Positions 1,725-56,463 of a stretch of 64,000 bases of DNA are shown in pieces. The notes under the pieces were generated by a model. The model was not told the DNA's origin and made no database searches. It was given only the letters and a program-made list of their open reading frames with translations. Made by a program: the position numbers and the translations under genes. The stretch spans positions 38,899,598 through 38,963,597 of the forward strand of contig NC_030385.2 of the NCBI RefSeq assembly GCF_001625215.2, in the 5' to 3' direction. How positions within the stretch are numbered: the first letter of the stretch is position 1; every line of letters begins with the position of its first letter. This stretch comes from Daucus carota subsp. sativus. Lineage: Eukaryota > Streptophyta > Magnoliopsida > Apiales > Apiaceae.

Positions 1725-2865
1725 ATGTTTTTTCTAAAAATAAGTAATTTGAGATTAATTTTCGTAATAAAATAATTCTATTGAAGGTTGTTATCTCCGC
1801 TACGTATATACTATCTCCTCGATATTGATATTGTCGTGTAAAGAGACAATGCATATTTATCTTCTTTCTTTTTTGTTGTCATAACGCATATTTATCTTAA
1901 AATAGCGGAGTCCCTATCTTTTTTATGCATATTTATGAACGATCCTTCATGCTTATCTTTTCTTATTTATCATTTCTAATATATCATTTAGACTTAATTA
2001 AATTAAACAATATACATTCTACATCATTTAGAATAAAAATAAAATTGCGACAAATTTTGAAATACATAATATTACTCATTCATAAATCAATAATATTAGT
2101 GAAATGCGTCGGTGTCCTTACTCATATCTGATATTGAGATTGAAAGGAATGTATTTAAAAAAATTCAGTTAAATCTCATCAAATTCTTAAATAATCTCAA
2201 ATCTACTTATTCAAATGTCACAATTCGACTATTTGACAAATCCATCATAAGCAAACCAAAAGATTATAATTTATTATTAATATTCTATTACATTTATTTG
2301 TACACTGAACTATAATATTCTCTCAGTCGGGGCTGGATTAATGTTACTTTCTAGATCAAGATTCATAGTTTAGCACTTAAGTAACTAACACTGTCCATGA
2401 CGCTATTCTATAAATGATCGATGCGTACAAATTTTCTAAATATGTGGGCGCTAACTCCGCTCCGGTGCACTGTGTTGTTGTGTTGGAGTGCAAAGGACAT
2501 AAACAACGATTTGACCAACCATAAGAGGCCTTCAGTCGATATTTATGTTTGGATAAAGACAAGTGAAGCTTAAATTTTTATTCGATATTTTCCTTCATAG
2601 TATGTAACTGTAATCAACATTTACTTTATCGCGCATGGTAGTTTAAAAGTTAAAACCACCGAATCAAACAAACTAAGGGCTCTGGTTGATACTTCCCCCC
2701 GACCCTCCGGAATATATACATTCGTATTGAACACGAAGATTAAAAAAAATTATAAAATAACGTAAAGCAGCGAGAAAGAGAAAGAAAAGTAGTGGTGAGA
2801 CCCATTAATATTTAAGTGATAGATTTGGAAAGGCAGATGAAGTTAGTAGATGGGATTTTATATTA
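1725..2865. other. Intergenic, no feature seen
   Basis: AT-rich stretch between two MITEs. I find no splice-consistent coding exon, RNA gene or terminal repeat. Confidence 0.5.
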
Positions 2866-2867
2866 TA

Positions 2868-3101
2868 CTCCCTCCGTCCTAAAATACATGTCACTTTGAC
2901 TTTTTCACGTAATTTGAGATGCAAAAATAATATACTTCTGCATATTATTTTTCAAAATTTCATTTTCTGAATAAAAATTTAACATCGATATTTTTATTCA
3001 GAAAAGGAAATTTTGAAAAATAATATGTAGAAGTATATTATTTTTGCATCTCAAATCACGTGAAAAAAGTCAAAGAGACATGTATTTTGGGACGGAGGGA
3101 G
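2868..3101. mobile_element. Stowaway MITE, near-perfect palindrome
   Basis: This 234-bp element begins CTCCCTCCGTCC and ends GGGACGGAGGGAG, with TA duplications at 2866-2867 and 3102-3103. The arms match over nearly the full length: a left-arm stretch from the ACGT near 2908 through the TTTTTCA stretch is mirrored around about 3000-3065. A transcript would fold into one long hairpin. The high arm identity suggests a fairly recent insertion. Confidence 0.85.
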
Positions 3102-3103
3102 TA

Positions 3104-3760
3104 AAAGTTTACTACTTTGGGAAACTTTTGAAAAGTATAGAATTGAACGAGACATCCCGAAAAGAAAAATGCATAGAAATCAAAGAAATGGAGGGAGTAT
3201 TTGATATTGCTGCTAGTTTAAGCTATGCCTTACAATTTGACACGTAACACGCTAACACGAAACGAAACGACACGAAAAAAATGGATATAAGTTTTGATTT
3301 TCGATACACGAAACACGAAAGTACACGAACACGAAATTACACAATAAATTTCGTGTCGGATATGGGTTTTCATTTGGGGTACACAAATATACGAAATATT
3401 TGAACATAATATTTATTATATATATGTTATGATATATTAAATATATAATTGTGTATAAAATATATATTTATATGTATGTGTGGATATATATTGTAGATTC
3501 ATTAACAAATTTATAGAGAATTGTATACAAGTACAAATAATTATTCACATTTAATAAAATTATAAAGGAAAATATATATTAAATTTATTTTTTGATTAAA
3601 AAATATACTAATATTTTTATATATAATATTAAAAAAAACACGAAATGTTTCGGATCAGCTACAGATTTTAAATTAAGTACATGAAATTAATAACAGGCGA
3701 ATACGAGTTTCACTACACGAAATACGAAAATATATGAAACGAAACGATTGTGACCGGCTG
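3104..3760. repeat. MITE fragment and ACACGAAA-rich repeat
   Basis: A lone Stowaway right end (GGAGGGAGTA near 3190-3200) lies just beyond the intact MITE, suggesting nested or tandem insertion. From about 3239 to 3370 and again from 3620 to 3750 the DNA is made of degenerate ACACGAAA/ACGAAACG units, separated by AT-rich sequence. No gene is visible. Confidence 0.5.
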
Positions 3761-4221: not shown

Positions 4222-6619
4222 TCAATCAATATATATATATAAAGGAGGATGCGGGTGTCTCCAGAATTGTTCGATTGAGTCTTCTTATTTTTCCTAAATT
4301 TCGGATAGAAAAAATATAATTATAATTCAAAAAATCAGGTTCAAGAATTCTAAAAGTAATACAACTCTTTTCTTATCCGATTCTGAAGATAATACAATTC
4401 TTTTCTTATTTACAAATCTTAAAAGCAATAAAATTATATTTATTCAAACTAACAATCATAAATAAAATACAATTTAAAATTTGTAATGTACTTGCCCTCC
4501 TTCTCTCCACCCCCTCATCCCCGTCATAATCTTTCTTACTGTTAGTAGTATTCTTCTTCCCGCTGTCCAATTTCTCCATTATACCACACTCTCAGACCTC
4601 CCTCTAATCTTCAGTCCTCTACTTTGCCCGGAAGTTCAATGTTTGAAGGCAGTAAGCATACAAGAACGCAAAAAAGACTGTAAATTATATATAATATAAT
4701 AAAAAGAGATAAACATCTCTCTTTTCTCTCCCGTTTGCTTTCTCTCCTCTCTCGCAATCTCTCTTCTCTCGATCATCTCTCTTCCTCCTCTCGACCTCTC
4801 TCTCTCCCTCCTCACCTGAGAAAATAGCTAAAAGATAGTAATCGGTTGAGATATAAAATAAAAATCTTAACAAAAATATAATAACTAAAATTTGTGAAAT
4901 TCTGATTAGTTAACAAATAGAAATCTTACAAGAAAAGAAAGATAATTCTAAACAATTAAAAAATAAAATCTATGAAAATGGATATATTTATCCAATTATA
5001 ATTATAATTTTATCATAATATAAATGATTCTTGAGAGGATATGCAGGTTATAAAAGAAAAGAGATAATTTTAAACAATTAAAAAATAAAATATATGAAAA
5101 TGGATATATTTATCCAATTATAATTATAATTTTATCATAATGTAAATGATTCTTGTAAGGATGCGCAGGTTATGTGGAGTTTTTAGAAATTTTTCATTTA
5201 ATTTTTTTAATAGGTGAGTTAGCTAAAAAATAGTAATCGTAAAAGAGATATAATTCTAAGTAGTTAAGAAATAGGAATTTTAACAAAAATATAATAGTTA
5301 AAATTTATGAAATTCTAAGTAGTTAGTAGAATAGGAATACTAAAAGAAAAAAGAGATAATTCTAAACAATTAAGAAATAGGAATCTTATAGAAAAAAATA
5401 ATAGCTAAAATCTATGAAATTGGATATATTTATCCAATTATAATTATAATTTTATCATAATGTAAATGATTCTTGATTATTATTGTGTTTGAGGGGAGGG
5501 CGGCTCAAATTAATTTTTATCTAAATAATAATAAATTTTCTATTAGTGTTATGTTTGACGGGAAATCGGCTAAAATAATTTTTATTATCTAAATTATAAT
5601 ATATATATTTTTAAATAAAACAGGACCACAACTTAAAATAATTTTTATCCAATTATAATCTTTAACTTTATTATAATTATAATAATTTTTATTAGTATTG
5701 TGTACGGTCAGGCGACTCAAACTAATATCTATATTAAAATATTTTGTTATTAGTATTGTGTTTGATAAGAGAGTGGCTCAAACTGATTTTTATCTATATT
5801 ATTATATTTAATTTTATCATAATTATAATAATTATACATTAATATTGTCTTTGATGGGAGGGCGGGCCAAACAATTTTTTTTATTAGTATTGTGTTTGAC
5901 AGGAGGGCCACTTAAGCAAAATTTTATATTAATTATAATATTTTTTATTAATTATATGTTTAACAGGAACATGACTCAAAATAAAGTTTATGCAATTATA
6001 ATATTAATTCGTATCAAAATTTCTAAAAAAGATTCTTGATTAATATTATGTTTAAGGGGAGGGCGGCCCAAATTAATTTTTATCTTAATAATAATAAATT
6101 TTCTAGTAGTATTATGTTTGACGGGAAAGTGACTAAAACAAGCTTTTATCTAAGTTAGTATTTTTTTATTAAAACGGGACCATGGCTTAAAATAATTTTT
6201 ATTCAAATATAATATTTAACTTTATCATAATTATAATAATTTTTTATTAGTATTGTGTTTGATGGTAGGACGACTCAAACTAATATCTTTGTTATATTTT
6301 TTTGTTATTAGAATTGTGTTTGACAAGAGAGCGGCTCAAACTAATTATTATCTATTTTACTATATTTAATTTTATAATAATTATTGATTAATATTATCTT
6401 TGATGGGAGGACGGTCCAAACAATTTTTTTTAATAGTATTGTGTTTGATAGAAGGACCACTTAAACAAATTTTTATATTAATTATAATATTTTTTTATTA
6501 ATGATATGTTTAACGGGAACATGACTCAAAATAACTTTTATGCAATTATAATATTAATTCGTATCAAAATTTATAGAAAAATTCATAACGCCGCCGCGAA
6601 GCGCGACTTTATTCACTAG
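4222..6619 (+). mobile_element. Non-autonomous Helitron, complete
   Basis: The 5' end is TCAATCAATATAT followed by AAAGGAGGATGCG. The 3' end carries a GC-rich hairpin at about 6591-6606 (CGCG-AAG-CGCG), then a short T-rich spacer and the terminal CTAG at 6616-6619. It sits between host A4221 and T6620, the A|T insertion typical of Helitrons, with no target duplication. No RepHel protein is encoded. The interior is repetitive: a unit of about 90 bp near 4949-5040 recurs at 5069-5160 and partly at 5398-5475. A segment of about 550 bp is duplicated (about 5470-6030 and 6031-6580). A short motif resembling TATTAGTATTGTGTTTGA recurs roughly 14 times. A second copy begins at 63137. Confidence 0.85.
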
Positions 6620-21620: not shown

Positions 21621-22186
21621 CAGGGACGTCTCTAGGATTTTGTACTTATGGAGGCAGAATACTTAGGATTTCAAACTCATGGGGAAAATTAGAGGTTACA
21701 AAAAAAAATCTTAATGATTTGTGGTTCTTTTGCTTGAAGGGTGAAGTGTTTATTTCCTAAAAATACATGAAAAGGACATCCGGACATGAGCTTCAGTTTT
21801 GTTTTTTATTTAGTTATGCTGCTCTGCTGTAACCGGACAACAGAAGCCTGGGAGTTGTGGTTCTTTTGCTTAGGGTGAAGTGTTTATTTTCTAAAAATAC
21901 ATGAAAAGGACATCCGGACATAAGCTTCTGTTTTGCTTTTTATTTAGTTATGCTGCTCTGCTGTAACCGGACAACAGAAGCCTAGGAGTGAGCGCTTTAC
22001 TTCAAAAAAAAAAGGTCACAAAAAAGAAAAATATAGGAATTGAACCATGGTTGTTTCCATAACAAACTCCAACCTCAACCATAGGGGCAAGGATGTTAGC
22101 TTTAAAAATGCTATACTGAAACATAGTAAACACTAAACAAGATACTGGGGGCAAGTACTCCCACTGCCCCCGGTGTGAATCCGTCC
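21621..22186. mobile_element. 566-bp insertion with 11-bp target duplication
   Basis: The 11 bases ATATTAGTCGG occur at 21610-21620 and again, identical, at 22187-22197, exactly bracketing the segment. Ends are CAGGGACGTCTC and GTGAATCCGTCC; reverse complement of the latter (GGACGGATTCAC) resembles the left end only weakly. Duplication length fits a MULE or a LINE/SINE-type insertion. No intact protein. It contains a 136-bp tandem duplication. Confidence 0.75.
21719..21988. repeat. 136-bp tandem duplication
   Basis: The unit starting TTGTGGTTCTTTTGCTT at 21719 repeats at 21855 with a few substitutions and small indels. Both copies contain GACATCCGGACAT and end near CCGGACAACAGAAGCC. It lies inside the 566-bp insertion. 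Confidence 0.85.
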
Positions 22187-35100: not shown

Positions 35101-37676
35101 AGGGAGGAGTTCTGTAGGTGGGAAATTATTTTATCAAAGTGGAAATAATTGGTTGACATGAATGTCAAAAGAAAATTCAGATTAGAGGTAAAATCTAATC
35201 CCCGAAGCTTTGTTCAACATGGAATATAAGTAACCATGCCGACCAAATTTTATGTTGGGGTTGCAATACAAGGAATGCGGATGTAGGAAGTAGGAACATC
35301 AACAAAGAAACAAATTTTTTTGATCAGTCAAAAACTCTGGCAATTGGATCCCAGCCGATTCACTAACCCAAAAAAGAAATGAGTACTAAAAGGTAGAGTC
35401 AACTTAAGAGAACTAGAAAGAGAATGGAGAGAACTAAGATTCTAAAAGTAATTCTGATGCAAAAAGTATTTACTTCCATACAATATGTAACATCCCACAT
35501 CGATTAGTTAAAGAGTATTTGAGCCCTTTATAAGTACAAGCAAATAACTAATGTATACCAATTTGCTAGCACTTTTGAGCCGACCTGTGGTGGGTTGTGG
35601 GTCCGGTATGCTTCTAGTTGTGGGCTTGGGATGTTATAAATGGTATCAGAGCTCTACCCGGCCGGAAGTGCAGAGGCACTGCCGGGTTTCGTAAGTTTGA
35701 TTGTGGGCTCGACGAGGACGTCGAGCATATAAGAGGGGGTGTTTGTAACATCCCACATCGATTAGTTAAAGAGTATTTAAGCCCTTTATAAGTACAAGCA
35801 AATAAACCAATTTGCTAGCACTTTTGGACCGACCTGTGGTGGGTCGTGGTATATTCTAGTTGTGGGCTTCCTGACTTTATGGTTGTGCTTAGTATCTAAT
35901 TTAAAGATAACGTGTTTGATATCCTAACATCGGATTGGTAACATTGATTTTAGATTAATAAGGAGTGACTTATAGCTACGTGTCTCATTTCGAGATTTCT
36001 TGATATTAGTGAGACACTTCGCAATTTAATTAAGGTACGGATTCTATTTCTTTCTAACCTTTTATTTAAATAATAAATATTTATTATATTTATTATCGTG
36101 ACATCCTTAAAATCTCTTTTGTTAATGCACGCTACTCTTTTCACTTAGCCTTCATGTATTTAAGTTATTGTTGCCTTGGCTCAGATTTAATTGTTTCCCT
36201 TTGCACTATGATTGCATCATTGTACTTATTTGTTTCTTGAGTCGGCAACTTTTGTAATTGTTTGGGCTCTGAAACTTATCCGTGTGGGTAAGTCACGGAC
36301 AATGTTCATATGGAGTTCGTAGTAAAGGTGAACTAGACACCAACTCGTATCGGTGACTTAAGCATACAAGCACGTTTCTGGGGTATGAGACGTGAGAAGA
36401 TCATGATCGTTATTGTTTTGTGGAATGTTTTATCCATTTTTTATTTCTTCTTGTGGATATCCGAAGAATAAATCATTGTTCAGTATTTGCTCGGTGATTG
36501 GAGTTGAGCAATTACAGTTTTGTGTAAAACACCCGTATTGTGTCATTTATTCACCATTGAGCCTTATTTGTAGTCCATTGTTTATCTCGATTATTGTGAC
36601 TAAAGGTACTTGTACCAATTTATTGTAATCATTGTTTCGAGATTATTGATACTCCTTGCACCTACATTACTTTTATATTCGTACTGGGCATTGGCTCACT
36701 CTCGTTTGTTTTCTTTTCGCAGGTAATCAGGGGTAGCGGGGAGAGTGATGAGTGACACCCACTCTAGTTGCTTTCTTTGTTAGGGGCTATATTAAGACTT
36801 TAGAGCTTATATTTATGTTGATTTATGACTTTGTTGGATTTATCATTTTGGAGTTTCAGACTTTATTATCCATTATGATTTTTGGTTTGTTAAATTATTA
36901 TTATTTCCGAATGAATTTAGAATCATTTAATTGTTTGGCCCTATTATTAAAGTGGGGTGTTGCACAATATATCCAAATTTACATCTCAACTATCTTTGTT
37001 ATATTAAATATTTATAATTAAAAAAAGATAGTTATTGGCTCTCTAAATAAGCCGCGATGCATTTGAATCTTTGGTTCGACAAAAATCAGTTCAAAATTGA
37101 TTAAGTTCACGGAAGAGTTTAAGATTTGTTTAATAAACAAGCTGAGCTTAATCATAGAATATTTCGACTCAACAGCATCATAGAATATTTCGGCTCAACA
37201 GCTCGTGAACAGGCTTGATAAGGGAATGATCCTTGTCAATAAAAAGGATCATAGGAAATTTCAATAACTAGGCTTGTGAGCAAATTCGATTAGTCAGTGA
37301 ACACTGAACATAAACAAACTTGATAATTAGTTTATGTGCTCTTCAATACAGGTTCGATTATTATAGACATTAATCTAGAAATTAAAATATATGTTGATAT
37401 TATTAAGAAGTAATCTTATTAATTTATTTATATAATAGTATATGTTACACTGAAGACTATATGTAATAGACGAATTTAGCTAGTATACTATTAAGTTACA
37501 CTTAGGTAACTCAGTTTGCAAATTTTATATTAAGTTTCAGTTACAAAAATTAAAATTAAAATTAACATCCTAAGCAAAAGAAAAAACAAACAAATCGCTC
37601 TATAATACTCTTTATAGTGACCTAGAATATTATAATATATTATAATTGCCTCTATTTCCAAATAATAGCAGAAGAT

Positions 37677-47916: not shown

Positions 47917-50599
47917 CTACTCAAAACCCATCATCATATCATTACTCAACTTCTTGGCTAACTTTGGTATCATCTTTTCTCTTTTTCCTTTCTTCAGAAT
48001 CACTCTGTTTACATCATCAGGCGGTGCCACAGATGCCGTGGACAGGATTGTGGATTCATTCTGTGCATAGATGAACTTTTCAAACTTCTTTTCAGTCGAG
48101 CCAAAAGAAACTACCAGTTCACGTCCAAACATGGTCTGAAACAGGGAGCCTCGTCCCACTAGGAACTGGGGATGGTTCCTCTGGGATGATGTCGTAAACC
48201 CGAAAAACTCCAAGGGGCCTGTTCTTGATGAAATTTGACAGAATGGGAAGTACCTCGGTATCCAGAACACATCTCCTTCATTCACTTTGGTATTCATAGC
48301 TAAAGTACCATTTGGAAATACAATCTGGATAGAGCCGCTTCCTCTCAACACAATGCCGTACTCTGACGCTGTTGGATTTATATGTGGCGCCATCATTGAT
48401 CCCTGGAAGACAAGATTAAACAGAGAACAATGTCAAAATAATGGAATTGATGTCCTGGCTCATAATGTTTATGCATGACATTATCATATGGATAAAGCTT
48501 GAACGTACCGCGGTGAGATTGACTAGATAGACACCAATGCCAGAGTGATTAAGAGGCTTATACTGGCTGTCATCAACAGCCAAGCTCCATCCATAACTGT
48601 TCTGGAAGTCTGGATTTCTGTCGTAAAGATTGTAAACATCATCTCCTGAATCCCTTACCTTGTCTTTGTTTTCCTTGTTTTCATTTATAAACAAGGATTT
48701 GACGAGCTTTCCAAGTGACCAACTTGGTCTTTCTTCTTTACTCTCTGTTACGTCAACGTCTCCCTCAAATAGCACAAATTTCTTGAGGTGTGCTTTCTTC
48801 TGATGATGTTCTAGATTGATGAAATGTGTCCACAAATTAGGAGATTTTGACTCTGGTGATATGTATACAATTGCGCCCGAAGGTTCTGGGCTCAGAAACT
48901 CCTCCAACTCTGACACTGATACCTATATTCAGCACAGAACATATCTCATATATGCCGGAAGAGAATCAATGGCAGTCCATACAAAGTGAGGTGCCAAAAT
49001 GCTAATTAAAGTATTCTCAATTGGCAAAAAAAGAGAGAATATTTTCTTACATTAAATGCAGTTGACAGTGTCTCCTTATCAAATCCAGCTAGTATGGAAG
49101 ATGGATTCCTTCCTCCTCCAATAAAGAAAGACTGCACGAAATCAAATGATGCACAAAAAGTCATTGTAAAAAATAAATAAGAATGTTGATTCATAGAAGT
49201 TGGGAGCTCTTAGATAGTGTGATCCAACATTGGAGTTCTCTGACAACCTAGTAGCGTGATGTTGATTCACATGAGTTCTCTGATGAGTGATTCAAAAAGG
49301 ACTTCTCAAGTAATCTGCTAGTGAATGCGTAATGGTGATGCACATCAGAGTTCTTTCATAATTTGATTTACATGGGACTTCTCTGGTGACTTAATAGGAC
49401 CGACACATTTGTACTAGTTTATTATTGCCATTTACACAGGACTTGTCTAGTGACCTAGTAGAGAAATTGTGATTTATTCAGGCCTGTAATGTGTCTAGGC
49501 AATATGAATATTACGGAAATCATCCAAATCTGAACTAATTAGTTGATAAGCATCCAAATCTGAACTAATTAGTTGATAAGCAAGCTATCAATCAAGATGT
49601 TGTCTTATCTGATGCAAAAATACACAGTTGAATGCATATTTCAGCAAGCAAGATGTGTGTATAGATAATCATAATTCTGTGCTGAGAATATCACCAATTT
49701 GAGTAGCAAACTTTCTCACAAAAAAACAACCAATGCAAAATGCTATCAATCCATCAAAGCCAACACCAAAGCAAAGCATTATATGTTCAAGTAACTAATG
49801 TTACGGTACCTGGAAGGCATGCCAGGTGAGGCTCTCAGATGTGTCAATGCTGCAGATGATTTGAAGTCTCTGTCCTTCCCCTGTATTCTCAATGTAAAAT
49901 ACGGAGCCAGCATCAATCGTGTATATATCTCCGGTCTTCAAGTCCTGCTCCACAAGCTTATCATTGCGAATCGATCCGACCTTTGCTTCCCCTATAACAA
50001 AATTTCCATTCATCAAAGACTCCTCTCCAAGTCCATCACACAAAATTGTTCTAAAGCAAAACCAGGTTCTTTACAAAAAGACTCTTTACTTCTGAAAAGT
50101 AAGACTCTGTCTGAACCAGACCAACCCTGTCTAGTTTTAACAAAATGGTGCATTACACAGTACCTCCTTGTAATAATAAAAATTTATGATCCCACTTCTA
50201 TACACTCTTTCTAAAATTAACCTCTATTTAAATAAAATAAAATAGTCGTAAAGTAATATTTTTTTCCGATCCCAACAATATCAATGTACAAGTCCTGGGA
50301 AAGAAAATTATACCTCTACGGATGAAGAGGATCAAGTTGGAATCAAGATACTGAGGGATGAAAAGACTCTTGGGCTCCATGTAAATAAAGCCAATATGCA
50401 TGGGCTTGTCCACAAACTTCCCTGTGATGCCCTTGACTACTTTCATTCCTCCTGCTTCTGATTTCACCACCTCCACTGAATCATGCAATATAAACAGTTT
50501 TCTCCCACTCCCCTCACTTCCACTTTCTTCTTCTTCTTCATACCCTTTAACTGAAATCACAAGTACCAGAACCAACAAAAAAGTTAAACCCTTCCCCAT
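47917..50599 (-). CDS. Vicilin-like (7S globulin) seed storage cupin
   Basis: Exons in gene order: 50599-50314, 49991-49810, 49131-49051, 48922-48509, 48402-47917; 482 residues. 7S globulins are trimeric storage proteins deposited in seed protein bodies. A signal peptide (residues 1-19, LTFLLVLVLVISVKG) precedes an acidic EEEEE stretch and two cupin domains. Cupin 1 (about 35-190) holds HIGFIYMEPKSLFIPQYLDS, GDIYTIDAGSVFYIENTGEG and FFIGGGRNPSSILAGFD. Cupin 2 (about 290-450) holds GIGVYLVNLTAGSMMAPHIN, EYGIVLRGSGSIQIVFPNG and GDVFWIPRYFPFCQI. It resembles the At2g28490 class of vicilin-like proteins. An RY element lies 135 bases upstream of the start. Five exons match the family. Transport or cupin roles other than storage cannot be excluded. 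Confidence 0.9.
49521..49580. repeat. Exact 30-bp tandem duplication
   Basis: CATCCAAATCTGAACTAATT and the following ten bases occur twice back to back (49521-49550, 49551-49580) without a difference. Located in vicilin intron 2. Confidence 0.97.
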
Positions 50600-50733
50600 A
50601 ATTCTTCTTTCTCTCTTTCAATGTGTGTGTTTTGCGGATTGTGGATAAGAAGAGAAGTGATGATGAATATGAAGTGTGATAGGATTGTTTAAGTAGAGGA
50701 AGCAGAGAGGAGCTAAGAGGGACAGGTGTTGAG

Positions 50734-50759: not shown

Positions 50760-51700
50760 ATGCTATGGTGAAGCCACAACATCAAGTCATTATGTTTGTT
50801 TTTAAGTGAGATGTGGCCTCCATGCTCTCACCACCCAACACCTCTGCTCTTTTCTTTGCATTTTACTGCTTGAAATTTGATTTCATATCTAAAATTAATA
50901 TTTTAAACTTTTTATAAAATAAAATACAAAAGTTATATTTTTATTAAAATAATTTAAAAAATAATAATTTCAGACTATTGGTTGAGACCATTATTTCTCT
51001 TCTTGCATATGTTTTGTAATCTCACTCTTTGGAAGTTTCTTATGACAATATATAGAGTATCTACTAAACATTTTATGTGTTTGTTGTGATTTAATAATAC
51101 TCCAGTTCAAGCAAATTTTGTGAAAGTCGTCACTAAGTTAGAATTTTTCAATACTGAAATTGAACAACTCCTCTAAAATTTACTTTTTATAGATAGGAAA
51201 AGGATAAGACTCTGTGGCATGAGAAAAACATATTTTTTTTGCTAGTAATAAATTATAGATAAGAATAAAAATAAATAAATATATTAATGGTCAGACAAGC
51301 ACCGTCTGCTGTTGTACAAATGAACACTTTCCTGCTATTAATTAATGTGACTATGTGATGTATTGTTTTATTTTTACTTAATATCGAAAAAGTACTAATA
51401 TTTTCTTACTCAGATTAATTGCAGAAATTGGAATAAGAATTACTATTATTAAAGATAATTGAAAAAGTGTACAGTAGTAAAATACTAAAATCCATCAATT
51501 TATTCTACATAATTTCAAGCGTAGAATACCTATTAATTTTGAACATTGTGGTCAATGGTCAAATAAAACTGTAGTCATGCGGTTTGTTTCTCAAGATTCC
51601 ATTTTCATTACAAAGGAGAAATGCATGTTGTGCGTGTGTCCTCAATTAGAGAAAAAAGAAAGAAAGAAAGAAAGAAATGCATGTTATGTCTCTGTCTGAG
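50760..51700. other. Intergenic, vicilin promoter to hairpin locus
   Basis: AT-rich DNA with no gene visible. A (GAAA)n microsatellite of about five units lies near 51655-51676. Confidence 0.5.
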
Positions 51701-51703
51701 GGC

Positions 51704-51711
51704 TATAAATA
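51704..51711 (+). promoter_or_regulatory. TATA box upstream of the hairpin cluster
   Basis: TATAAATA, a canonical plant TATA box (context GGCTATAAATACAGGG), lies about 35 bases before the first hairpin. Transcription would start near 51735, which fits a Pol II primary miRNA transcript. Confidence 0.6.
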
Positions 51712-51739
51712 CAGGGCAAAACATTGAATCAAACAGCAA

Positions 51740-51846
51740 CCACAGTGTAATCTCACAAGTGAGGATTGGTGGAAACTAAACATATTAGCACTGATTTTAT
51801 CACATGCTTAGTTCTCTCCAATATTTGTGACTTTCACTTGGTGTGG
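51740..51846 (+). ncRNA. Candidate pre-miRNA hairpin 1
   Basis: The 5' arm (51761-51782, GAGGATTGGTGGAAACTAAA) pairs with the 3' arm (51805-51826, TGCTTAGTTCTCTCCAATAT) with one or two mismatches and a G:U pair, around a loop of about 20 bases. CCACA at 51740 and TGTGG at 51842-51846 close the base. No peptide-coding signal. It is homologous to hairpins 2 and 3. I do not recognise the mature sequence as a conserved plant miRNA family. Confidence 0.55.
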
Positions 51847-51879
51847 TACATAAAACCTTAAAACCTTAATGTAGAAAAA

Positions 51880-51985
51880 GTGCAATGTCGAATGTGAGGA
51901 TTGGAGAAAATTAAACAAAAAAGCAATTGATTTCCTTTATTGATCTGTTTAATTTTCTCCAATATCTTATATCCGCCCTTTGCAC
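51880..51985 (+). ncRNA. Candidate pre-miRNA hairpin 2
   Basis: This is the best stem. ATTGGAGAAAATTAAACA in the 5' arm (51900-51917) is perfectly complementary to the 3' arm (51946-51963), and pairing resumes outward to GTGCAA (51880-51885) against TTGCAC (51980-51985). Total stem is about 38 bp with a few mismatches and one bulge; loop about 28 bases. Candidate 22-nt 3' product at 51946-51967 (begins TGTTTAATTTTCTCC), candidate 5' product at 51895-51916. Confidence 0.6.
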
Positions 51986-52120
51986 ATTTGCTCAAATCTG
52001 TCCATGTTCAGGGCATGGTCGAACATGAAAATCAGGTGAACCTGAAGAGAAAATGCAGCCTCTCTATACGACATTTTCTCATCCTATGAAGAATGAGAAA
52101 GAGAATATGCAACTGTGAAT

Positions 52121-52214
52121 GTTGAATGTGAGAATAGGATGAAACTAAACAGAGAGGTCTTGGATTTTTATTTCAAGCATTCTGTTTAGTTTTCTCCTAT
52201 ATCTCATCTTCAAC
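52121..52214 (+). ncRNA. Candidate pre-miRNA hairpin 3
   Basis: The 5' arm GTTGAATGTGAGAATAGGAT continuing to AACTAAACAGA (52121-52153) pairs with the 3' arm 52181-52214, with one bulge and about four mismatches, around a 27-base loop. Candidate 3' product at 52183-52204 begins TGTTTAGTTTTCTCC, so it keeps the core of hairpin 2 with matching changes on the other arm. Confidence 0.6.
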
Positions 52215-53813
52215 CTATACTCTTCTAGAGTTTTATTACTTATAAAATAGAAATTAGGATGTCCTTTCCCTCTATTTCTCATCTGACTCTCCAAGATAAA
52301 GAATACATGCATTGAAATTGCATAGATGGCTAAGATAACAAATCACAGAAAGCAATCCCTCATGCTTACTTGCATTTAGCAGCATGTCCATAAGAATTTG
52401 CATTAAGCATTTGCACCAATGCTTGCATTTAGCAGCAACGTGGTTTATGTGCAGCACCAAATGCATGTCCTCCTGTTTTTAGTTTACTCAATTATATCTT
52501 AGGAGGTAACTGTTTCAGCTTACGCCCAACAAATTCATATAGAACAGCCTATGTTCCATTTTCCTGACATTTAGTGTCAAACTCAATCACTCAGATCCCC
52601 ATCCAGTAAATTGCAAGGTTTAATACTAAGAGTTCAAAGATATAGATCAGAGTGTTACCATGCTTGATAAGTTAGTGAATATAAGGAGCAGGGTATGGTA
52701 GGCGTGCCCGAAGTAACTGCCATGAAAGGAGATAGGTTAAAAGTAGCATCACTCAATGGTCCTTAGTTGGTTCCAAATATGCATATAATTTGTCATCTAG
52801 TATTGTGAATGCATATCTGGTTCTAGGATAGTTCTTCTCAGCAGCAATATCTGCAGAATCCATTATGTACATGAGTGAAACTACTCTTTTCAACACATTA
52901 TGATAAAGGATGACATAATTATGGAATATAGTAACTTACAGAGTTGTGGCCAAACTGAACCCCGTTTAGCACCTTGGTGGCCGGAGTTTCAAATTTGCAA
53001 TATCATGGCCATATATTGTTTTTATGTTCTAAAAAGGGCTAAGGGTCACTTTTCTGAGGAGAAAAACTACTCTTTGTCTCAAAAAAGTGGCCCTTAGCCA
53101 CCAAAATGCTAAAACATGAAAGTTCAGCCACCACTTTGAAATATACTCTTATGGAATATTATAAATTATTAAGCTGGAACTTTAATATTTGTATTAGGTA
53201 AATATATAATATACAATTTAATAAGCTTGAGCACCCTCGATAAACACTTGCAAAAAGAATACAAAAACATTTATCTATTCCAAAAACAAATTAGCATGCA
53301 TAAAGAAGTGAATTTTATAGACGAACCATAAACTTGGTGCAAACAGATCTTCCAGCATTGAGACCTCCAGCTACTTATTATCTTCCCAGCTTTGGGATGC
53401 CTGGCCACTTATAATCTTTCCACCATTTACCTTACACACACAGCCATAATCATATGTTCGATCCTGTTCTTAGTAACTCTGCTCATATATTATATATACA
53501 CAATCCGAGTGGATTCCTGTCAATTGGTTTCAGATAGAATTCAACATCTTTAGCCAGAGAAGTATATTCATATTACATAGAGGCCTTTTCTTGTAATTCT
53601 GATTTCTTGTACCTTCTCTGAAAGTGCAAAAATGCCATATCTCACAGAATTCAACTATACCTAAAACACTCAGTTTAAACCAAGAGTGGAATAGGAACAT
53701 TGGAAGACTGGTCATCCTCAATGGATTAGGATACACATGAGTGCAGAACAACTACAAATTAGATATGACTTCAAATTAATGAATAGCAGAATCAGCTTCA
53801 GATGAAAGAACTT
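52215..53813. other. Intergenic between hairpin locus and PPR gene
   Basis: No coding exon is seen. CTTGCATTTAGCAGCA occurs near 52371 and near 52424 as a short direct repeat. The last few hundred bases are likely 3' UTR of the minus-strand PPR gene. Confidence 0.45.
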
Positions 53814-55838
53814 TTAACCATCCATCCAACTACACCCAGCGTTCTTTCTTATTTTCATATCATTCATCAATTTTCTAACCTGTTCTGAACGCTCCCATTC
53901 CCCAGAAATGGCAAATATACCAGATAGTTGCACATATGCCCCTGAGTTTTCAGGATCAAGTTTTGTAAGTCGCTTCACTATGTTCTTCCCAAGAGTTTTA
54001 TCTCCATGAGCAACACACCCTCTCAAAACTGATGCCCACATACTTTCATCGCATTTAAATGGCATTTGCTCAATAAGTCTCATAGCTTCCCCAAGGCAAC
54101 CTGCCCTCGAAAAGAGATCTACCATGCAGGAGAAATGCTCAATCCCTGGCTCGATACCATAATCATGTTTCATTGCATAAAACCATTTCCGTCCATCTTC
54201 AACCAGTCCACAATGATCGCAGGCAGATAATACTGCAGTGAATGTAATCTCTGTGGGAACAAAAGCACCACATCTCATCTCGGTAAATAAAGCCAATGCC
54301 TCAAACCCATAGCCATTAGTTGCATATCCCATTAACATAGAATTCCATGAAGCTTCATCATATTTAATTATTTGGTCAAATACATTCCTACCAGTTTGAA
54401 CAAATCCACACTTGCAATAGAAGTCAACAAGTGTAGTAGATACGATCTGATCAGATTCCAGTCCAATGATAGTAGCTTTTGCAAAAATCTGCTCACCAAG
54501 CTCAAGTGACGAAATGCTGGCACAAGCACTGATCACACTGGCAAGGCTATACTTATCTATTTTCAAGTTCATTTCATTCATCTTGCAGAAGAGATTCAAT
54601 GCTTCTATTGCACACCCATTTTGACTCAATCCCACTAGCATCGAATTCCACGAAATTAGACTTTTACATGGCATATTGTCAAAGACTTGTCTTGCATCCT
54701 CAAGCCTACCACAACTAAAATATATTGTTATCATAGAATTTAACAAAACAGTGTCATATATCTCCAACTCACTATATAGTTTACAAGCATCATTAGGGCA
54801 TCTACACTTAGCATACATGTCGACAAGTCCAGTTGCAACTAAAAGGTCATTGACAACTCCAAATTTATGAGCATGACCATGCACTTGTTTACTATACCCT
54901 AGATTACCCAAAGATCCACAGGCACTCAATAAACTAGCAAAAGTAGAGAAGTCTTCCTTGATTCTTAATTCTCTCATCTTACCATAAAAGTCTAATGCTT
55001 CCAAGACTTCATTGTTATTAACATATCCCGCAATCATAGAATTCCATAAGATCACACAATCATTATCACTTCTACTGCAAAAAATCCTTCTTGCATCATT
55101 CATTCTACCACAATTTGCATATCCCGAGATTAATGCTGACACAGAAAAGTCATCTACATCACTCATTTTACTCAAAACATGGCTTGCCTCATCAATATCA
55201 CCACATTTCCCATACATATTTATAAGCGCACTTCCAAGCACAGAATCAAACTCCACATCATTAACAATTATACGCGCATGAATTTGCTTTCCCCACTCCA
55301 GAGCTAACAAATCAGTACAAGCACCAATAACCGTAGCCAAAACAAACGAATCATCGCCACACAATTCAACATCCCTAAAAACTCTAACAGCTTCTTCTGG
55401 ACGCCCACCCCGAACATACCCATGTATCACTGAATTCAAAACAACCCCATTCTTATCAGGCATTTCATCAAACAATCTTCTCCCAATTTCCACTTCACCC
55501 AACTTGATCAAACCAGTAATAACAAGATTCCAAGAAAACTCATTCTTGTCCGGAATTGAATGAAACAAGCTCAAAGATGCATCCTTGTTGCATGTTTTCA
55601 GATACCCTTCAATCATAGTATTCCAAGTGAAGCAATTTCTGTGGGGCATTTCATCAAACAGTTTGTGTGCATCGTTTAAGTTGCTAAATTTCACATACAT
55701 TTGCACAATGCGGTTGACTATAGTGAGAGCAGAGGGAATGACACCGCGTTTGAGAAAAAGAAGGTGGAGCTGCCTGCCTGCATTGATTGTTTTGATGTTT
55801 TGTAGTAAACGTGCGCAGTGGTGTATATCAAGGTTCAT
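53814..55838 (-). CDS. PLS-type PPR protein with E domain, At1g77010-like
   Basis: Single-exon gene of 674 residues. PLS-class PPR proteins bind organelle transcripts, many as specificity factors in C-to-U editing. About 17 repeats run through the protein, with repeated NSMIxGY and DAxxxFDEMP modules such as NCFTWNTMIEGYLKT and SWNSMLVGLSQNGCAIEAL. The end (PFKCDESMWASVLRGCVAHG to KNAGCSWMDG) is an E-type extension, and there is no DYW deaminase domain. Sequence order and ends agree with Arabidopsis At1g77010 as I recall it, including SACASISSLELGEQ. Mitochondrial location is expected from the family. No strong targeting peptide is obvious at MNLDIHHCARLLQ. Target RNA unknown. Confidence 0.9.
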   Translation of the reverse strand: MNLDIHHCARLLQNIKTINAGRQLHLLFLKRGVIPSALTIVNRIVQMYVKFSNLNDAHKLFDEMPHRNCFTWNTMIEGYLKTCNKDASLSLFHSIPDKNEFSWNLVITGLIKLGEVEIGRRLFDEMPDKNGVVLNSVIHGYVRGGRPEEAVRVFRDVELCGDDSFVLATVIGACTDLLALEWGKQIHARIIVNDVEFDSVLGSALINMYGKCGDIDEASHVLSKMSDVDDFSVSALISGYANCGRMNDARRIFCSRSDNDCVILWNSMIAGYVNNNEVLEALDFYGKMRELRIKEDFSTFASLLSACGSLGNLGYSKQVHGHAHKFGVVNDLLVATGLVDMYAKCRCPNDACKLYSELEIYDTVLLNSMITIYFSCGRLEDARQVFDNMPCKSLISWNSMLVGLSQNGCAIEALNLFCKMNEMNLKIDKYSLASVISACASISSLELGEQIFAKATIIGLESDQIVSTTLVDFYCKCGFVQTGRNVFDQIIKYDEASWNSMLMGYATNGYGFEALALFTEMRCGAFVPTEITFTAVLSACDHCGLVEDGRKWFYAMKHDYGIEPGIEHFSCMVDLFSRAGCLGEAMRLIEQMPFKCDESMWASVLRGCVAHGDKTLGKNIVKRLTKLDPENSGAYVQLSGIFAISGEWERSEQVRKLMNDMKIRKNAGCSWMDG

Positions 55839-56463
55839 GACTACATGGTTGTGAAGTTTTTTTTTGTACTTCTAATGTCTTATCTACAATTTTTAAGTTA
55901 TATTTAAAAAATAGATTTTATTTATTAATAATAAATGTTGCTTTTTTAAAAATAAAATATATATTTTTAAATATGTAGTGTATTAAAATATTTGCATCTC
56001 ATATTATTAATTCTAAAAAATAACATAAATATATTTTTTTAAATATAAATGCTTATTTTAGAAATGGTTTTTCCTCCAAAGAACCTCGCAGAGCGATTGG
56101 TCCATGTATATAGTAAACTCACATGTTCCATTTCATACATGCTTTTAGAAGTATATTTATTGAGCAGTTGCCTTGTGCGTATAAGGTATTCATTGATGCT
56201 TAAGCTGATGATTTGCTTATTTTGCTTAGAGATCGATCATATGAATACAATCACAGAAATTTAGAGGTAAACATTTCTTTACAGGTAAAATGTTCGTTGT
56301 GTTACTTACAACTGATGTGTAGTCTTCCTGTTTTATGCCACAAGTTCCGGGTTTTCAAATTTTCAACCTATATACTCTGGGAACGAACCCGAAGACCAAA
56401 AATGCTAACCAGGATCGCGTTTCTGCTCCAGTGGAGCAAACCTGTTGTGTATTCATATTTTTA
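55839..56463. other. Intergenic between PPR and hydrolase genes
   Basis: Holds the PPR 5' region and the hydrolase 3' UTR. No feature of its own is seen. Confidence 0.45.

Follow-up and report, generated by a model that had tools for sequence, protein, structure and literature searches.

Introduction

miR2275 is the trigger of 24-nt phasiRNAs in meiotic anthers, and from grasses to eudicots a single precursor carries a cluster of its stem-loops, tens of nucleotides apart (Xia et al. 2019, PMC6367383). In that survey of 209 plant genomes, the strawberry precursor carried up to six stem-loops, bulges in the miR2275 duplex were marked in the figure legends, and DCL3 was put forward as a hypothesis for the eudicot dicer of 24-nt phasiRNAs (PMC6367383). 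miR2275 was undetected in Brassicaceae, Solanaceae, Cucurbitaceae and Fabaceae and was absent in Lamiales; carrot, Daucus and Apiaceae are not named in the main text of the paper (PMC6367383). The MIR2118/482 and MIR11308 clusters are likewise polycistronic triggers of reproductive phasiRNAs and differ in that their products are 21-nt phasiRNAs (Pokhrel et al. 2021, accessible part of PMC8368212).

The print evidence for miR2275 in Apiaceae is weak. The accessible part of a carrot TCP paper includes a miR2275 sequence in its target table (PMC12980029), and that of a cumin paper gives two 19-nt miR2275-like sequences with the values 3 and 1, apparently read counts (PMC10180537). miR2275 is unnamed in the main text of a water dropwort paper (PMC8633011). 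It is also unnamed in the accessible main text of a carrot salt-stress miRNA paper (PMC10700493), which covers root and leaves, tissues where an anther RNA is not expected. For Panax notoginseng, 90 loci with 24-nt phasiRNAs have been described, and the two mentions of miR2275 in the accessible part of that paper concern rice and maize (PMC5780745). A literature search on carrot and 24-nt phasiRNAs found no paper.

Results

Three similar stem-loops on one strand

We analyzed a 64,000-nt stretch of carrot DNA (hereafter, the window), in which positions 51704-52217 contain the motif TATAAATA and three mutually similar hairpins on the + strand, i.e., H1 (51756-51840), H2 (51885-51979) and H3 (52119-52216). 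The three stem-loops lie inside 461 bases, and the gaps between the model matches are 44 and 139 bases. Clustering of stem-loops on one strand, a trait of MIR2275, is thus found here, with three stem-loops in place of the up to six of strawberry and with an H2 to H3 distance of 139 bases, unlike the tens of nucleotides described for the family. By analogy with other MIR2275 loci, H1, H2 and H3 would share a common transcript.

The 50-nt 5' arms (starting at 51749, 51884 and 52118) align without gaps, the outer two matching the middle one at 72% and 74%, and the 20-nt 3' arms (at 51805, 51946 and 52183) do so as well, the second and third at 85% to the first. H2 and H3 have similar 5' outer stems, contrary to the first-pass annotation of this DNA, which had described the outer stems as different. 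The TATA-like element reported there is an exact match to TATAAATA at 51704-51711 on the + strand, 44 bases upstream of H1. Judged from its position it is a possible TATA box, and the spacing to H1 would suit a promoter; the motif occurs 13 times in the window vs 10.5 expected by chance, so it is not rarer than expected. Directly downstream of the cluster, an exact 16-nt repeat, CTTGCATTTAGCAGCA, is present at 52369-52384 and 52422-52437.

Folding of the hairpins

Folding of each hairpin, suggested as a check in the first-pass annotation, gave clear results for H2 (-38.5 kcal/mol, z -7.64) and H3 (-43.9 kcal/mol, z -7.37), with 0 of 200 shuffles as good in either case, and a weak one for H1 (-26.5 kcal/mol, z -1.85; 7 of 200 shuffles as good). 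A stable single stem-loop that holds the miRNA duplex in its stem was found for two of the three hairpins (H2 and H3). The inner duplex energies were -24.7 kcal/mol for H2, -24.1 kcal/mol for H3 and -12.0 kcal/mol for H1, whose duplex has three internal mismatches. H1 is a divergent copy, probably decayed or poorly processed and likely weak or dead.

Inverted arms were searched for with 20-nt arms, at least 18 complementary positions and a 10-59-nt loop. Five places in the window were retrieved, i.e., H2, H3, a MITE-like foldback, an AT repeat and one further foldback, and the same criteria retrieved none in each of three Markov random sequences. The three related hairpins proposed earlier are present, and by this count and their folds H2 and H3 exceed what chance would yield. 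When 105-nt segments were scanned along the window (8520 folds), H3 ranked second, and H2 and H1 were outside the best 25 of 8520, in the case of H2 probably because the 15-base grid cut its basal stem. The strongest of the 8520 folds (-45.6 kcal/mol at 35656) is surrounded by a TGGGATGTTA-type repeat, with copies at 35478, 35627 and 35742 in inverted order (region 35478-35755). A candidate fourth hairpin between H2 and H3, at a short inverted repeat (52044-52083), was rejected (51990-52120: z -1.02, 26 of 200 shuffles as good).

Assignment to MIR2275

Among 4227 Rfam families, the sole match of the window at curated cut-offs was MIR2275 (RF03896) at H3, with 68.3 bits against a gathering cut-off of 60.5 (E 3e-11 on the window). 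At a threshold looser than the curated cut-off, H2 matched the same model with 58.9 bits, 1.6 below the gathering score (E 1.3e-10 on 1.2 kb), and H1 with 30.0 bits, far under 60.5 (E 0.003 for a 1.2-kb segment and 0.16 for the whole window). The curated gathering score was therefore reached by one of the three hairpins, H3 alone, and H2 and H1 were assigned to MIR2275 by their register, their likeness to H3 and their neighborhood. All three hairpins span the full model (positions 1-95) in register. RF03896 also matched antisense, with 40.1, 38.6 and 21.4 bits, and the sense score was higher for each hairpin. In the first-pass annotation the mature sequences were not recognized as a conserved family; the RF03896 matches of the three hairpins place them in one. 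We are highly confident that the locus is a MIR2275 cluster by identity, a claim that applies equally to a cluster that no longer works. Both the family and the architecture are known, and what is new is one more member, not a family.

Matches to mir-4782, MIR171_1, MIR1507, MIR8007, MIR8562, mir-3478 and MIR5638 were all under their own cut-offs and were set aside, as was the MIR2118 model, which scored 19 bits vs a cut-off of 85. A tRNA scan found no tRNA gene, a result without bearing on the hairpin question.

Predicted mature and star RNAs

Placed in the register of the family, the predicted mature miR2275 sequences are 22 nt long and lie on the + strand in the 3' arms, UUUAAUUUUCUCCAAUAUCUUA at 51948-51969 (H2) and UUUAGUUUUCUCCUAUAUCUCA at 52185-52206 (H3). 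The predicted 21-nt stars, placed by the 2-nt overhang geometry on the predicted folds, are at 51897-51917 (H2) and 52131-52151 (H3). For H1, aligning the repeat with its H2 and H3 counterparts puts CUUAGUUCUCUCCAAUAUUUGU (51807-51828, + strand) in the mature register. Relative to this register, the ends given in the first-pass annotation are shifted 2 nt upstream. The predicted H2 duplex has a single bulge, at mature position 17, and in that of H3 position 10 is unpaired and position 17 bulged; at this place the RF03896 consensus has two unpaired positions against one. It is because of the bulge at position 17 that a predicted 22-nt mature lies opposite a 21-nt star in H2 and H3. This 22/21 geometry was found on the predicted folds of these two of the three hairpins and not on that of H1. 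Asymmetric duplexes of this kind are known to characterize 22-nt phasiRNA triggers.

The locus thus resembles MIR2275 (RF03896; the litchi, strawberry and grass clusters) in its predicted 22-nt mature on the 3' arm, its duplex bulge, the CUCCNAUAUCU core of H2 and H3, and its several close stem-loops on one strand. Differences to the Rfam consensus mature amount to 4 of 22 positions in H2, 3 of 22 in H3 and 7 of 22 in H1. At positions 4-5, where the consensus has GG, H2 has AA and H3 has AG. H3 further differs from the consensus by a U at mature position 14, a change within the CUCCAAUAU core that is matched on the star arm. Compared with the miR2275 given in the accessible part of PMC12980029, the predicted matures of H2 and H3 show 3 differences each over 22 positions.

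Ungapped target sites with a score of 5.5 or better were searched for in the window. For H2 and H3 these were confined to the cluster itself, and for H1 there was, besides its own complement, a single site at 35417 (score 3.5); as a control, each of three random sequences per query contained 0 or 1 site. It is conceivable, though we think it unlikely, that H2 and H3 are distinct miR2275 variants with separate target sets and that the position-14 change of H3 co-evolved with its own 24-PHAS group. If true, one transcript would supply two non-redundant triggers in this plant lineage.

Covariation between hairpins

With the 30 base pairs of H3 as reference and in ungapped register, H2 has 21 pairs unchanged, 3 with two-sided change, 3 with one-sided change and 3 broken, and H1 has 14 unchanged, 3 two-sided, 2 one-sided and 11 broken. 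RNAalifold of the three hairpins gave 24 pairs, of which 3 changed on both sides; its covariation term was +0.45, which taken alone does not speak for the structure. The claim that the two arms change together between hairpins is therefore borne out in part, as two-sided changes are present, among them the ATTGG/ATAGG example with its partner, but the effect is small. Across three sequences, covariation offers modest support.

Neighboring genes and other features of the window

The MIR2275 cluster is flanked by a cupin gene on one side and a PPR gene on the other, both on the - strand, and it overlaps none of the listed open frames of at least 120 aa. To the left, 47917-48432 (- strand) matches Pfam Cupin_1 and a vicilin in PDB (E 2.5e-10). 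The open frame at 48416-48922 (- strand) had no Pfam match, and it and 50228-50617 may be parts of the same cupin gene. To the right is an At1g77010-like PPR gene (53814-55871, - strand). Among the best 120 of 5325 matches, the closest relatives of its protein after one 100% identical entry were from Heracleum sosnowskyi (87%), another at 86%, and Apium (81%); one match reached 73% over 88% of the query, and the other named ones were at most 68%, with Lonicera first. These protein relatives point to a placement of the window in Apiaceae.

Elsewhere in the window, tandem duplications are present at 21719-21989 (~134 bases, 94%) and 4930-5173 (~122 bases, 92%). A foldback at 2863-3106 has the ends CTCCCTCCGTCC and GGACGGAGGGAG adjoining TA and resembles a Stowaway MITE; a sub-threshold MIR6224 match (66 bits vs 171) falls at 2867-3102. 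Another foldback, at 53037-53099, ~820 bases downstream of the cluster, has 22-nt arms that are 91% complementary and belongs, on both strands, to the strongest folds in the scan.

Copy number and alternative readings

We considered whether the hairpins could be transposon-derived inverted repeats of a MITE that yield 24-nt siRNAs. Two foldbacks of the window, near 2863-3106 and 53037-53099, are indeed MITE-like, and the cluster is flanked by two inverted pairs, 51230-51252 with 52232-52254 (23 nt, 74%) and 51562-51574 with 52225-52237 (13 nt, 92%), but both pairs are short and AT-rich and were taken for chance. The hairpin has three copies within the window, all in the cluster. A covariance model built from the three hairpins and run over the window with default filters found no fourth copy on the + strand; its other matches were the reverse complements and two weak ones (E 3.4 and 4.1). 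BLASTN of the region against the window returned the cluster and one 14-nt match at E 0.33. With no further copy in the window and the sense-strand match to a microRNA family, an origin from a MITE seems extremely improbable. A new lineage-specific microRNA family that merely resembles MIR2275 would be consistent with H2 scoring just under, and H1 far under, the gathering score. This reading is at odds with H3, which passes the curated cut-off, with the match of all three hairpins to the full model in register, and with an arrangement clustered as described for MIR2275, and we regard it as very unlikely.

A closer contender is a cluster that descends from MIR2275 but has lost its function, with hairpins that persist by chance or have begun to decay and are silent in anthers. 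H1 is visibly degraded, and several eudicot lineages lack the family (PMC6367383), both of which agree with such a loss. The inner stems of H2 and H3, on the other hand, are near-perfect, the bulge at position 17 is kept in both, and the comparison of H2 with the H3 reference gave as many pairs with two-sided change as broken ones (three each, of 30). We therefore judge a defunct cluster to be unlikely, and favor a MIR2275 cluster that also works as described for the family.

Discussion

The first-pass annotation had proposed that one polycistronic microRNA gene carries tandem paralogous hairpins, as in plant miRNA clusters, and this stands as the best reading of the locus in light of the Rfam MIR2275 match and the clustering. 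In plants, microRNAs are released from stem-loops by a DCL1-type enzyme. On the model of MIR2275, a single Pol II transcript from the + strand would carry the three stem-loops, and a DCL1-type enzyme would excise 22-nt miR2275 from H2 and H3, in each case from the 3' arm. Once loaded into Argonaute, the 22-nt RNA may slice 24-PHAS transcripts in meiotic-stage anthers, and the sliced transcripts would be made double-stranded and then diced into 24-nt phasiRNAs. Transcription, processing, timing and targets are here drawn from what is known of the family, and we put the probability that the cluster works in this way at roughly 0.8.

With two good hairpins and one degraded, the locus is of moderate use and low surprise. 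In the carrot family it may represent an intact trigger for the pathway that makes 24-nt phasiRNAs at meiosis, in contrast to Solanaceae and Lamiales, in which the trigger is reported missing (Xia et al. 2019, PMC6367383). Because disrupted 24-nt phasiRNA production in maize leads to conditional male sterility (stated in PMC6367383), the locus could serve studies of male fertility in Apiaceae crops.
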